From: Morchella semilibera
Taxonomy: Eukaryota; Ascomycota; Pezizomycetes; Pezizales; Morchellaceae
Reading direction: 5' to 3'
Length of the DNA stretch: 64,000 nt
Assembly: GCA_009192285.1 (NCBI GenBank)
Contig: CM018603.1
Location: 6,631,613-6,695,612, forward strand
Shown: in pieces, positions 26,731 to 33,234 of the stretch
Position numbering within the stretch: position 1 is the stretch's first letter
How the letters are laid out: each line of letters begins with the position of its first letter
Notes under the pieces: model-generated
Database searches by the model: none
The model's input: only the letters and a program-made list of their open reading frames with translations
What the model was told of the DNA's origin: nothing
Made by a program: the position numbers and the translations under genes

Positions 26731-27603
26731 CTAATCAAGGATCTCCTCAACCTTCTTCTCCAACTTCTTCTCCACCTTCTCCGCTAAAGTTGGGTCCACG
26801 CCCTGCTGGTTCAAGAAACTCAAATACGAGTTCCATCCTTTTCACACCGTTAGTACCACCCCCTAAGCTTGCCTAGAATAGAAAAATCACATACCCAAAG
26901 AGACGAAGTTAACCACTAACAACCTATGGTTCAACGGCACTAGCTTAAAGTTAACTAGCTGGACCGCCGGCCACACCATCCAGTTCGTCTTCAGCCCCGT
27001 CCAGTAATTGGCATCAAGCTTTTCCGCCGGACTCCCGCCCTCTAGCACTGACAGCGTCGAGAAGAATAACAGCATATTGAGCGGCGTGAAGATGAGTTGG
27101 TCCGCAGCAACGCGCGCTACGATCTCTGCGTTGGGCTTGCCCGGGAATTTTATTGCTCGCTCGAGGAAGCGGTACCAGTTGACGACCATGGGACCAAAGA
27201 TGACTGCATGTGGTTTATGGAGTTAGTAAGAAGATAAAGGGAGAGAGAATGGTAGGTGCGAAGGGAGAGATACAGCCACCGTAGCCGCCCATACGTGCGG
27301 TACGCATGATGTCGTGGTTGTCGAGGCCTTTGCGCTCAACAAGTTGCTGTGCTATAACGTCGCCAGTTCCGAAGAGGACCTGGGCGCGGTGGGAGGGTTA
27401 ATTCTCTATATATTCTAGGAAATGGGGGGTCATTGGCTTACACCAGTGGTGATGCATTGGGTGAGTAGTGGACGGGCGGCCAAACGGGCTTGATACCTAT
27501 GTATTCCAACAGTGTTAGCATTAACACCACTCCCAACAAACGGCAAAGATTAAAATTAATAGTGGGGGTGTTTTTCCGAGCGGCGAACTCACCAACGAAG
27601 CAT
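26731..27603 (-). CDS. sym1: Sym1/Mpv17 family mitochondrial inner-membrane protein
   Basis: Exons complement(26731..26837, 26895..27203, 27274..27379, 27442..27496, 27593..27603); 588 nt, 195 residues, normal for the family. The first coding exon is 11 nt (ATGCTTCGTTG) and splices to complete Trp in MLRWYQARL. Conserved stretches are [82 protein letters not shown]. Four hydrophobic segments are expected. Known relatives sit in the mitochondrial inner membrane and matter for ethanol or heat-stress growth and mtDNA upkeep; the exact channel role is debated. The C-terminus is an unusual Lys/Glu repeat ([16 protein letters not shown]), likely a short charged helix. A peroxisomal PMP22 paralogue is the alternative, but the N-terminus fits Sym1 better. 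Confidence 0.9.
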
Positions 27604-28289: not shown

Positions 28290-28300
28290 TTGGAAATCTA

Positions 28301-28900
28301 CAACGACCCAACGCAAAAAAGGCCCCCCCTGGCCTCGAGGGCATTGAGCCCAAGAGACCAAGAGAGGCCATTTAATTCTCCTCTTGACCGCGGTCAAGGA
28401 GTCCTAACGCAAAAAAGGCCCCTCCTGGCCTCGAGGACGCTGAGTCCAAGAGACCAAGAGAGGCCATTTAATTCTCCCCTTGACCGCGGTCAAGGGGTCC
28501 TAACGCAAAAAAGGCCCCTCTTGGCCCCGAAGGGACCAAGAGAGGCCTTTAATTATTATAATGCTCTCTCCATGAGGAGAGAGCAGCAGGGACAGGGACA
28601 GGGACAGGGACGGTTAGGGAGACCTAACGCAAAAAAGGCCCCTCTTGGCCCCCAAAGGGACCAAGAGAGGCCTTTAATTTATAATGCTCTCTCCATGAGG
28701 AGAGAGCAGCAGGGACAGGAACAGGAACAGGAACAGGGACGGTTAGGGAGACCTAACGCAAAAAAGGCCCCTCTTGGTCCCCAAAGGGACCAAGAGAGGC
28801 CTTTTTACTCCTCAGTGGTTGAGGAGACCTAACGCAGAAAAGGCCCTTCTCGGCTCCGTATTAGGGAACGTTGAAGGGCCTGATCTGAGCCCGGCCCGAA
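28301..28900 (-). repeat. Six-unit array of hairpin-forming direct repeats
   Basis: Six copies of a core reading (C)TAACGCAAAAAAGGCC start at about 28310, 28406, 28502, 28626, 28755 and 28831 (spacing 96, 96, 124, 129, 76). In each unit the core's GGCC opens a stem closed by a downstream GGCC (GGCCCCTCTTGG pairs with CCAAGAGAGGCC). Units 1-5 add a second palindrome of different sequence: TTGACCGCGGTCAA (units 1, 2), GCTCTCTCC/GGAGAGAGC (units 3, 4) and CTCCTCA/TGAGGAG (unit 5). Units 3 and 4 also carry GGACAG/GGAACA hexamers and a GTTAGG-GAGA-CCTAAC junction stem. Strand is set to minus only because mismatches in stem 1 become G-U pairs in a minus-strand RNA. The 180-codon open frame across it is probably incidental. 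Confidence 0.85.
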
Positions 28901-29159
28901 GGCCAGGTAGGGCATAGGCAGCCTTTGAATCTCTCCACTCTAAGGCAAAATGCCAAAGCGAGTTGGAGAGGAAGCAAAGACTGCTGCCCTATCTTCTCAG
29001 AAAGGGGGGGCAAGCAAGTCTCCAGACCTCTCCGGGATAGGATTGACTGCTTGCCCCCATGATGAGGAGCAAAAAGAGTGGGAGGAGGGGACCTGTTATA
29101 TAGCTGGCGGTCCTGAGATGCCAAGGTGTGGTTTTGGCCGGTGCTTGGCGGCGGGGAAA

Positions 29160-29440
29160 ATTATTGGGTGAGGGCGGCGAATATCACGCTGGTGGGGGGG
29201 GGATTTTTCTTCTTCTTCTTGGCTGGGGGGAAAATTTTGGTGGGCGGGCGGGGAATTTCACGCTGGTGGGGGGATTTTTCTTCTTCTTCTTGGCTGGGGG
29301 GGGAAATTTTGGTGGGCGGGTGGGGATTTTTCTTCTTCTTCTTGGCTGGGGGGAAATTTTTGGTGGGCGGGCGGGGAATTTCACGCTGGTTGGGGGGGGG
29401 TTTTTCTTCTTCTTCTTGGCTGAGAGAAGGTTCTCGTGGG
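29160..29440. repeat. G-rich minisatellite
   Basis: About four imperfect units of roughly 50-75 bp. Each has a GGTGGGCGGGCGGGG block, an ATTTCACGCTGG block (lost in one unit) and a TTTTTCTTCTTCTTCTTGGC block. The plus strand has many G runs of 4-9. The open frames crossing it (Gly/Phe-rich) are produced by the repeat. Confidence 0.8.
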
Positions 29441-30819: not shown

Positions 30820-33234
30820 CTATATCGGCGACGGCGGGTTCAGGCCAAACACATCCCACGGGTTATCCCACGACACAAACCCATCGCGGTCCCCCAGCAT
30901 GCCCCAAAAGCTCTGGTCCACCGGCACCGAGTCCAGGTCCGCCCAATTCCACGCCGCCCCACCACCGCCGCCTTCAGGCGGATGCACCTCCACCTCCGGA
31001 ATCACACCGCTCCCGCCTGTGGCTTGCTCGTAAGCACCACTCTCGGCGCAGCACGGCGTAACCGTAGCCGCAGCCGTAGCCGCGGTAGTAGCAGTAGTAT
31101 TAGTATCTGCATTCTCGCCGCCGCCGCCGCCCTCCATCCCGAGTTCCGCCCTCTCAAGCTCCTTCTTCTCCCATATAGCGTCGTAGTACAGCCCCGACCC
31201 CATCCGGCTCCTCATCCTCAGCGACTTCCCCCACCAGCCCGCGCTCCTCCTCTTCCCCACGCTGCCGATAATCTCCAGGAACTTTGCCGCGCGCATCGAC
31301 TCGTCGTTCTCCACGACCGAGAAGCCCTGCAGGAGCGTGAACGCCTCACGTACGTGGTTCTCGGCCGTCTCGACCGCCTGCGTGTCCAGCAGCGGCGACG
31401 CCGGCGAGGATTGCTCCCGCGCGTGCGACAGCGCAACCAGCTTCAGCAGCCACAGCGACGCGAGCACCAGCGAGCGGTTGATGTACGTCGGGTAGTACTT
31501 GAGGCGGCCGCGCCTGTGCTCGGCGGCGATGACGGCGATGAGCTTGACGGCCGTGCGGAAGGCCCTGATCATGACGGCCGAGACCTCGAGCGGGCCCACG
31601 GTGGACTGGATGTCCTCGTGCATGACAAAGGTCTGGATGTGCAGGCGGTTCGTGAGCAGGAGGATCTCGCTCTCGGGGAAGGCGGGGTTGGAGTTGAGGA
31701 GGGCCTCGAGCTCGCTGTCAAACAGCTGCACGAGCGACCAGCGCGAGGACGGCTCGATGAGGCCCGTGGCGCTGAAGGGGTTGTTGGACAGCGTGGGGAT
31801 GAAGTTGGAGCAGGCCGTGGCGATCAGGAGGTGGTGCTTGAGTTTTGGGGGGAGGTCCGTCGACGGGTTCCGGATCGTGAAGTCAGGGGTGATGGTGCAG
31901 GGTACACCGAGCTTGAGGGAGAGTCTATATGTGTGAGTATGATTTGGTATTATCAAGGAATGTTTGAGTCCATACGAGAAATTGACGAGAAAACATGCTA
32001 TCCAGCTCACCGTCCTAACCCTCAGATCATCCCTCGGAAAGCACTTTTCACGAAACTCCTGCGCAAAGCCCGGCCTGTGAAAGCCATTCTGCATGGCCAG
32101 GTGCGTAGCAATGCCGCAGTACAGCCAGCTGCCATCGTCGCTCTGCTTTTTGAACGGGATGGGCCACGACCCCAGGAGCAGGAGGGCCTGGATGTTCATG
32201 TCGAGGGCCGTGTTGTTTGGGTTTATCGATACGTCGGCGATAGACTCCCGCACAGAGTCCGCGAGCTGCCCGTAGAGGTCCCGCGCCAGGGGATTGGCAT
32301 TGTGGCGGCAGGAGGTGAGGAGGATGGTTTTGAAGAGGAGGGGGGACTCGGTGTGGATTGTCTCGATCGAGACGGTGGGATTGATTATGGGGAGGTGAGG
32401 GTGGTAATGCGTGTGATATCTACAATATATATAGATATAATAAGAAACCAGTTATTTACAACCCATATATTGACCGCAAAGTGAGGAGAGTAATAATTAC
32501 TCGTGAAAAAGCTCCATGATCCACTCGAGCGCAACATCGACGCCGGCCACATTGGACGGAAGCAGGGAGGGATCCGGTACTGGAAATATGGGCGCGGGAG
32601 GTTCAGTACTCTCGTGGGCTTCGCTGGTGGGAGTGCCGGTGGCGGTCTTCTCTCCGTCGATGGGGGAGGACTGCCAGTGCGCTGCTGGCCGGAGCTCTAG
32701 CTTCTCGCGCATGGACTCTAGCTGTCTGGATACCTGCTCTAACCGTCTTTTTTTTTTTTTTTGCCAATTGAAAATTAGCTACATTATATCTAGAGTTAAC
32801 TCCGTTTGAAGCTGGGAAGTGATTGGGGGGCACATACTGTTTCGCCGGCGTCCGCTTGAACGTTGGGTCCACTCTACACTGCAGGTTATGGCGTGTGCAT
32901 CTCGAGCACGGCGCTGGAAACCTGCTCGGCCCGTCGCATCGCAACTATTGTAAAAAGAAAGAAAAATTAATTATATATACGAACACTAGAGCACCCCCGG
33001 ATATATATAGATGAACGAGCACACATATATATAAAGAGACCAGTATCATACCTTCTGCTGCCGACAGGTAGTGCACGCGTTCGGCGTTCTCTTCCGCTTC
33101 ACCTGGCCGGTGCCTCCTGAGCGTGCGACACCACCACCACCACCACTCCTGCGCGCGGTCGTTGGCTCTTTCCCGGCGCCGTCGCCGCCGCCGCCGCCGC
33201 CGTCGCTGATGATGGAGGGGGTTGACGATGACAT
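30820..33234 (-). CDS. Zn(II)2Cys6 fungal transcription factor
   Basis: Exons complement(30820..31924, 31976..32419, 32501..32746, 32838..32944, 33052..33234); 2085 nt, 694 residues. The DNA-binding cluster spans exons 1 and 2: CTTCRQQK then LRC, PCSRC and HNLQC, giving C-x2-C-x6-C plus C-x2-C-x6-C. It follows a Gly-rich N-terminus and a basic stretch (KRKR). Exon 3 starts with a leucine-type linker (RLEQVSRQLESMREKLEL), likely a dimerisation coiled coil. The middle homology region includes LLLLGSWPI, LYCGIATHLAMQNGFHRPG and SLKLGVPCTITPDF; the last is formed only after removing the 51-nt intron 31925-31975. The C-terminus is Gly/Ala/Thr-rich and acidic. It probably regulates nearby genes; the MFS permease and AtuA-like gene 1.2-3.7 kb away are candidates, by position only. 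Exon 5 is clearly more GC-rich than the flanking DNA. Confidence 0.9.

Follow-up and report, generated by a model that had tools for sequence, protein, structure and literature searches.

Tandem hairpin arrays with U1/U2-type promoters in the Morchella semilibera genome: a probable family of non-coding RNA genes

In Schizosaccharomyces pombe, hairpins with stems of 23-32 nt and loops of 3-5 nt are predicted directly behind the U1, U2, U4 and U5 genes, and Pac1 cleavage behind the snRNAs triggers termination, the substrate rule for Pac1 asking for a small-looped helix of 20 nt or more (PMC8421224, available part). In Saccharomyces cerevisiae, Rnt1 cleavage of pre-snRNAs likewise leads to termination (PMC13183374, available part), and in Giardia a single ncRNA 3′-processing motif is common to snRNAs and other ncRNA genes, including di-cistronic precursors (PMC3510501, available part). 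The hairpin arrays described here resemble the Pac1 and Rnt1 hairpins, which are long, small-looped and placed directly 3′ of Pol II snRNA units (PMC8421224 and PMC13183374, available parts). Unlike those, however, the arrays hold up to six hairpins in tandem, carry a conserved linker and in some cases have alternating second hairpins, and they differ from the Giardia motif in that the latter is a 12-nt sequence (PMC3510501, available part) whereas the arrays share a structured hairpin. The AGNN tetraloop of Rnt1 substrates was not seen in the arrays, whose loops are variable and mostly of the TTCG, TTTG or TTTA type. By analogy only, the Xist A-repeat and the roX RNAs are also made of tandem hairpin modules with short conserved motifs, but these are animal RNAs with a chromatin function, unlike the arrays. 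To our knowledge, the structured Pol II ncRNA gene families described in filamentous fungi are few beyond the spliceosomal, nucleolar and telomerase RNAs. No account of the array family was found in open-access papers (the words 'tandem', 'repeat' and 'array' are absent from the main text of PMC5640933 as far as it was available), subscription papers being outside the search so that this is no proof of absence, and novelty is claimed only against Rfam and the open-access literature searched.

The array that gave rise to this analysis lies in a 64,000-nt stretch of DNA (hereafter the window; contig 1, positions 6,631,613-6,695,612) of a genome of 56.76 Mb in 23 contigs, and comprises six hairpin units at 28306-28882 on the minus strand. 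The original prediction had described six direct repeats sharing a core. Six repeats are indeed present, spanning 28295-28863 with successive unit spacings of 96, 96, 124, 129 and 76, but the core is only partly common, the exact 16-nt word TAACGCAAAAAAGGCC occurring in four of the six and AACGCAAAAAAGGCC in five, while the sixth reads AACGCAGAAAAGGCC. In the minus-strand reading the usual unit consists of the hairpin GGCCTCTCYTGG...CCARGAGGGGCC followed by TTTTTTGCGTTAGGTC. In that order, unit 1 (28827..28882), composed of a linker and a hairpin with a 23-nt loop common to array B (see below), is followed by a second hairpin CTCCTCA..TGAGGAG (28808..28826); unit 2 (28751..28803), a 21-bp hairpin with a TTTTTTGCGTTAGG linker, by a second hairpin GCTCTCTCC..GGAGAGAGC (28686..28707); and unit 3 (28622..28674; hairpin and linker) by another copy of the latter (28563..28584), these three second hairpins being placed by folding and by word positions. 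Unit 4 (28498..28549) is followed by a second hairpin or palindrome CCCCTTGACCGCGGTCAAGGGG (28476..28497) and unit 5 (28402..28467) by one around TTGACCGCGGTCAA (28380..28400), both placed by word positions, and the series ends with the hairpin and linker of unit 6 (28306..28371).

The palindrome words of the original prediction were recovered at the sites it named, that is, TTGACCGCGGTCAA at 28384 and 28480, GCTCTCTCC/GGAGAGAGC at 28563/28576 and 28686/28699, and CTCCTCA/TGAGGAG at 28808/28820. The stem that it regarded as rewritten yet still pairing, in the unit that it numbered 6 and that comes first in minus-strand order (28827-28882), pairs as described, with AGGCCCTTC at 28841 and GAAGGGCCT at 28873. 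It was also right that the second palindrome differs between units; as a signal of covariation, however, this difference does not hold, because the palindromes are of three unrelated types (two, two and one copies). The covariation resides instead in the main stem and is visible mainly across arrays. Units 5 and 6 are near copies of each other, as are units 2 and 3, and tandem duplication is thus evident. Folding of a 601-nt stretch gave z scores of -12.3 for the minus and -13.0 for the plus strand (20 shuffles per strand), with folding energies of -344.7 and -298.1 kcal/mol, respectively, the minus strand being the tighter and both strands departing far from shuffled sequence. A protein-coding tandem repeat was rejected, as the unit spacings are not consistently multiples of 3 and a 180-aa ORF on the plus strand (28290-28832) has no Pfam match at E 0.001 and runs antisense to the inferred transcript. 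The array is flanked on one side by an Mpv17-family ORF (26887-27189, minus strand) and on the other by one that matches a Zn cluster (32603-32944, minus strand). Eight neighbouring ORFs were searched, of which five had a match above the cut-off (SPX lying just below it) and three had none, and the neighbourhood is fungal in character (VTC, Mpv17/PMP22, Zn2-Cys6 cluster, MFS).

The window array has relatives elsewhere in its own genome, where 27 stretches related to the region were found, itself included. A genome search with the 15-nt core word GGCCTTTTTTGCGTT, allowing at most one mismatch, returned 56 matches against 2 for the reversed control, and by our count 45 of the 56 fall in 13 dispersed arrays: A, the window array, on contig 1; B, C, E and G on contig 19; D on contig 2; F and L on contig 20; H on contig 11; I on contig 15; J on contig 6; and K and M on contig 23. 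No array was seen at seven of the 11 matches that lie outside; two of the 11 are on contig C10, paralleling C9, and two (L056 and L058) were scanned with the models described below. The contig pairs C9/C10, C12/C13 and C21/C22 give the same matches at nearly the same positions, as if they were duplicated haplotypes in the assembly. The 16-nt linker TTTTTTGCGTTRGGWC has 29 exact matches in the genome, all of them within the arrays, D being the only one of the 13 without any; at one mismatch there are 50, compared with 7 for the control. A viral collection contained no match to the linker pattern, and a prokaryote collection contained 71 single-match stretches, where we estimate that about 120 would arise by chance (17 positions, 257 Gb, two strands). 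A pattern for the 5′ domain was found at four places in the genome, all known members (A, E, F and H), with two matches in the reversed control.

In total, 55 units were extracted from the 13 arrays and folded, the linker of the unit being mostly TTTTTTGCGTTAGG. With a stem finder that knows only Watson-Crick pairs, the stems are 16-27 positions long in 47 of the 55 units and reach at least 20 positions in 32, and the loops measure 3-6 nt in 47. A comparison of first hairpins with the rest gave no support for a greater length of the former (p = 0.51). The stems of arrays K, L and M are quite different from the others (e.g. GCCCTCTCCCTCCC...), but are followed by the same linker as in arrays A-J.

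Upstream of the arrays lies a common promoter layout, found in 11 of the 13, in which TTGGC is followed after 20-24 nt by a TATA box, a C/T-rich tract and an A; no promoter was recognised in arrays C and M. In the window, promoter pattern searches placed the element CTTGGCA at 29119..29125 and the TATA box TATATAA at 29096..29102, both on the minus strand, with TTGGC 22 nt upstream of TATA. The same arrangement (TTGGC, 20-24 nt, TATATAA, C/T-rich tract, start A) is present at the U1 and U2 genes of this genome. The TTGGC-TATA spacing is 20-24 nt in 10 of the 11 promoter-bearing arrays and 13 in K, compared with 22 for U1 and 24 for U2; since the TATA sites used for this measurement were chosen with TTGGC within 45 nt, the result concerns the spacing and not the presence of the element. 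For comparison, of the 197 TATA-like sites on the two strands of the window, 3 have a TTGGC at 20-24 nt ahead of them, one of the three being that of the array. The TATA box varies in K (TATTTAA), D (TATATCT) and E (CATATAA), and the U4 promoter is divergent, with TTGGC at 17 nt and TATAAAA. A strict search of the genome for TTGGC-N8-16-CCAGCTATAT found six places, against none in the control, corresponding to arrays A, D, F and H and two other loci. These two non-array loci are named by Rfam as U1 (71.8 bits, cut-off 69.5) and U2 (85.9 bits, cut-off 46). A wider pattern was found at 14 places (control 2), ten of them being arrays A, B, F, G, H, I, J and L together with U1 and U2. At U1 the 5′ end AUACUUACCUG begins 41 nt after the first TATA base, and because the same count applies to the window, its RNA is predicted to start at about 29060-29063 on the minus strand, at an A some 39-42 nt from TATA, as judged from the aligned U1, U2 and U4 promoters. 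Just upstream of the array promoter, on the side away from the array, the window also contains a tandem repeat of the GGGGATTTTTCTTCTTCTTCTTGGCTGGGG type (29144-29422).

Between the predicted start and unit 1, again on the minus strand, are a putative 5′ leader hairpin GGGGGCAAGCAGTC..GACTTGCTTGCCCCC recognised by eye (29005..29058) and a conserved 5′ structured domain (28907..28993), which scores 74.5 bits with model R2, its sequence being among the six used for training. Compared with snRNA genes, the arrays lack an snRNA body, and the tandem hairpins make up the body instead. No match to an snRNA or to any other Rfam family above the gathering cut-off was obtained for any of the 13 arrays, the searches covering the window, seven loci with eight arrays, and four loci with arrays G, I, K and M; a further search of two stretches below the cut-offs gave sub-threshold matches only. 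A strict Sm site (RAU4-6G) is absent from 9 of the 11 promoter-bearing array transcripts, with short matches in D and K, whereas it is present in U1, in U4 and, as UAUUUUUG, in U2. Since all 13 arrays lack an Rfam match and 9 of the 11 transcripts a strict Sm site, the array RNAs are not spliceosomal snRNAs.

A second likeness to the snRNA genes is found at the 3′ side, where U1 is directly followed by a hairpin with CUGGGCGCNGUCCGAGG at its tip, which is also the 3′ hairpin of eight arrays. At U1 the hairpin begins just where the snRNA match ends, with an overlap of 8 nt, its loop motif being found there by exact pattern match, and a second copy lies 0.3 kb further on. The alignment of this 3′ domain comprises 13 sequences, namely those of the eight arrays, the two U1 copies and three other loci (L075, L076 and L077); 5 of the 13 arrays, the window array included, have no 3′ domain in the set. 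A search for the 3′ motif with at most two mismatches has a high background (28 matches against 12 in the control), but five of the 28 are exact, at U1, arrays E and L, L075 and L076. Four non-array loci with the motif were inspected, and the fourth, L078, was set aside, as it showed no other sign of relatedness (R1 E 0.057). The folded 3′ domain has a 3-nt loop in J, L076, F and the first U1 hairpin. At L076 (C3, about 1.201 Mb) a TATATAA box and a very well preserved 3′ hairpin are present (64.2 bits, in the training set), without TTGGC in the 60 nt before TATA; this locus has no Rfam match above the cut-off and is possibly another ncRNA gene without an array.

Models R1-R3 were all built from the family itself, so that their informative use is confined to R1, the 3′ model, on array units and on U2, with E-values that are rough; the U1 hairpins belong to its training set and their matches carry no information. 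R1 matches array units outside its training set, with a best E of 1.3e-8. Opposite-strand stems receive scores from it as well (best E 3e-6), and part of the match to the units is therefore a generic hairpin score. Two hairpins downstream of U2 match weakly (E 0.003 and 0.13), and two downstream of U4 look related by eye, the model giving no match for them. Judging from these sequence likenesses, a kinship between the array units and the hairpin downstream of the snRNAs is likely. GT-rich repeats (TTTGGCTCTTTTGTGGG and similar) were noticed by eye between the two downstream hairpins of both U1 (L069) and U4 (L153).

Our preferred interpretation, which as a whole we hold to be reasonably probable, is that the arrays form a family of snRNA-type Pol II ncRNA genes, the bodies of which consist of tandem hairpins for RNase III-type processing and termination. 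Its parts are not equally strong. That the loci are snRNA-type transcription units appears very probable, and promoter type and strand are well supported. RNase III-type processing, proposed by analogy, may or may not apply, and we lean slightly towards doubt, because stems of at least 20 positions make up only the 32 of 55 noted above and because the 3′ model scores opposite-strand stems. According to this interpretation, the window would contain a minus-strand ncRNA gene, one of at least 13 dispersed paralogues, transcribed, as we infer from the promoter and most likely by Pol II, from a start near 29060. The transcript would run through the conserved 5′ folded domain and then through six tandem hairpin units, each made of a long hairpin whose pairing is selected and of a conserved linker, mostly UUUUUUGCGUUAGG. 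In analogy with Pac1 and Rnt1, the hairpins could act as serial RNase III substrates, cleavage freeing the upstream RNA, and the cut could cause the polymerase to stop, giving termination without a poly(A) signal. The need for a tandem series and for a fixed linker goes beyond what such a processing model explains, and it may be guessed that the linker is a binding site presented many times per molecule. A further-reaching and rather doubtful possibility is that the arrays represent a new ncRNA class, that is, hairpin arrays under snRNA promoters in which stems conserved for structure alone would present many copies of the 14-nt linker UUUUUUGCGUUAGG; were this true, the linker would be a multivalent binding platform, or short RNAs would be released between RNase III cuts.

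The relative conservation of linker and stem bears on several of these points. Between arrays, identity is 0.879 for the linker and 0.622 and 0.699 for the two stem arms, and between arrays A-J and K-M it is 0.905 for the linker against 0.442 and 0.604 for the arms (52 of the 55 units in both cases). With the linker fixed and the arms diverged, the stem therefore keeps mainly its pairing and the linker its sequence. The U-run of the linker is replaced by TGAGT in 6 of the 52. In an alignment of 41 units from arrays A-J (A1), which omits 14 of the 55 units (12 in K-M, where the stems are different, and the first units of C and J), 94.9% of cells are paired and 14 of 21 pairs have changed on both sides; none of 500 shuffles reached this, and slid versions were at most 67% paired. 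Both sides have likewise changed at 13 of 19 pairs in the 3′ domain (13 sequences) and, in at least one sequence, at 13 of 22 predicted pairs in the 5′ domain (six loci). A plain example is given by the first units of arrays A and B, which share a 23-nt loop although their stems read CUUC/GAAG and CUCC/GGAG, respectively.

Phylogeny-aware null alignments, with tree and per-branch substitutions preserved, were generated by a script of our own that follows R-scape in approach. For whole helix sets, 0 of 1000 such alignments attained the observed pairing or the observed double changes in any of the three structures (unit, 5′ domain and 3′ domain), the structures tested having been drawn from the same alignments that were counted, which favours the pairing measure. 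The covariation of single pairs is modest under this null, with E<0.05 for 3 of the 21 unit pairs, for 1 of the 19 pairs of the 3′ domain and for none outside the structure. The covariation is real, and pairing of the stem is maintained while its sequence changes. The first proposal of the original prediction, a structured non-coding RNA under selection for folding, has gained support from the covariation, as copies from its own genome did not bear out the refuting condition of no covariation above background, and from the asymmetry of G.U and A.C pairs described below. Strand, promoter and the connection with snRNA genes go beyond that prediction, as does the stronger conservation of the linker compared with the stem.

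The same numbers weigh on the idea that the arrays are polycistronic milRNA precursors, in which Dicer would cut the hairpins and the stem arms would guide Argonaute. The genome has Piwi-domain loci and Dicer-dimer-domain loci, the lengths reported above for 47 of the 55 stems and 47 of the 55 loops would make fair Dicer substrates, and the promoter is compatible. However, conservation is the reverse of that expected, as the arms, the would-be guides, are rewritten between A-J and K-M and the linker is kept, and matches to microRNA families in array F are weak and fall far short of the curated cut-offs (best E 3e-6; for example, 41 bits for a cut-off of 190), so we consider this explanation unlikely. 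Conservation above that of the stems, in a position following a stem, is in turn what could be expected if the RNA were a scaffold or sponge in which the linker UUUUUUGCGUUAGG, open between stems, is bound repeatedly by an RNA-binding protein or an Sm/LSm-like ring; a U-run and a G between two stems also recall the surroundings of an Sm site. This explanation, to which we give as little credit as to the milRNA one, is at odds with the absence of a strict Sm site from most promoter-bearing transcripts and with the linkers that have TGAGT in place of the U-run.

A separate line of evidence comes from the pairs that are not of the Watson-Crick type, for which the stem finder, knowing only Watson-Crick pairs, is strand-symmetric. 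A G.T pair on one strand is an A.C pair on the other. On the minus (T-run) strand, the 172 non-Watson-Crick pairs of the 55 units consist of 122 G.T, 8 A.C and 42 others, and G.T exceeds A.C in all 13 arrays (sign test p = 0.00024). When one conserved wobble pair is set aside, 87 G.U and 8 A.C pairs remain in the 41 units of A1, and the 3′ and 5′ domains show 32 against 10 and 13 against 1, respectively. A process working on palindromic DNA would affect both strands alike, whereas the pairs are biased towards G.T; selection therefore acts, as judged from these sequences, most probably on an RNA structure of the minus strand. This leaves very little room for an array of DNA palindromes without RNA function, generated by replication template switching or by hairpin-templated repair; such repair can change both arms of a palindrome together, and tandem duplication is evident in units 5/6 and 2/3, but a strand-symmetric process should not produce this excess, nor would one expect from it a common promoter of the snRNA type or the conservation of the 5′ and 3′ domains. 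A non-autonomous mobile element spreading a promoter-hairpin cassette would agree with dispersed paralogues (three arrays lie within 40 kb of one contig) and with the decay of some loci (L075, L077), but is just as improbable, given that a promoter upstream of the start would be lost by RNA-mediated copying and that the seven best non-self matches of the window region are just 67-81% alike. The other origins named in the original prediction, a transposon end or a product of recombination or slippage, leave the strand-specific wobble pairs, the shared promoter and the conserved domains unexplained.

Under the preferred interpretation of snRNA-type ncRNA genes with hairpin bodies, a single genome appears to hold more than 12 related loci, most of them recognisable by a U1/U2-type promoter, and this shared promoter may offer a direct route to such genes in other fungi. 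The arrays would also provide a natural set of hairpins with which to study the ending of snRNA-type transcription by RNase III cleavage, and the partner of the linker becomes directly testable through the reversed conservation, in which the linkers are fixed and the stems change.

Two loci resemble decayed relatives of the arrays. L075 (C2:4677450-4678550) has weak units and the 3′ hairpin, and L077 (C23:1994200-1995250) combines the 5′ domain with the 3′ hairpin but shows no linker array that could be recognised. The word TATTTTGCGTTAGGTC, 14 nt of which are the same as in the array linker, occurs in the ends of short inverted-repeat elements (L150, L151 and L152); it has four copies in the genome, and the three that were inspected look like inverted-repeat elements and not like arrays. 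A chance likeness to the array linker is plausible here, because the control of the linker search had 7 matches. Finally, the U2 locus (L070:1620-1945; C11, about 1.4796 Mb), for which the Rfam match extends over 269 nt for a model of 192 positions, seems to contain two intron-like inserts, GTAAGT...ACAG and GTATGT...ACAG, without which the sequence resembles what we take to be the usual 5′ sequence of U2.
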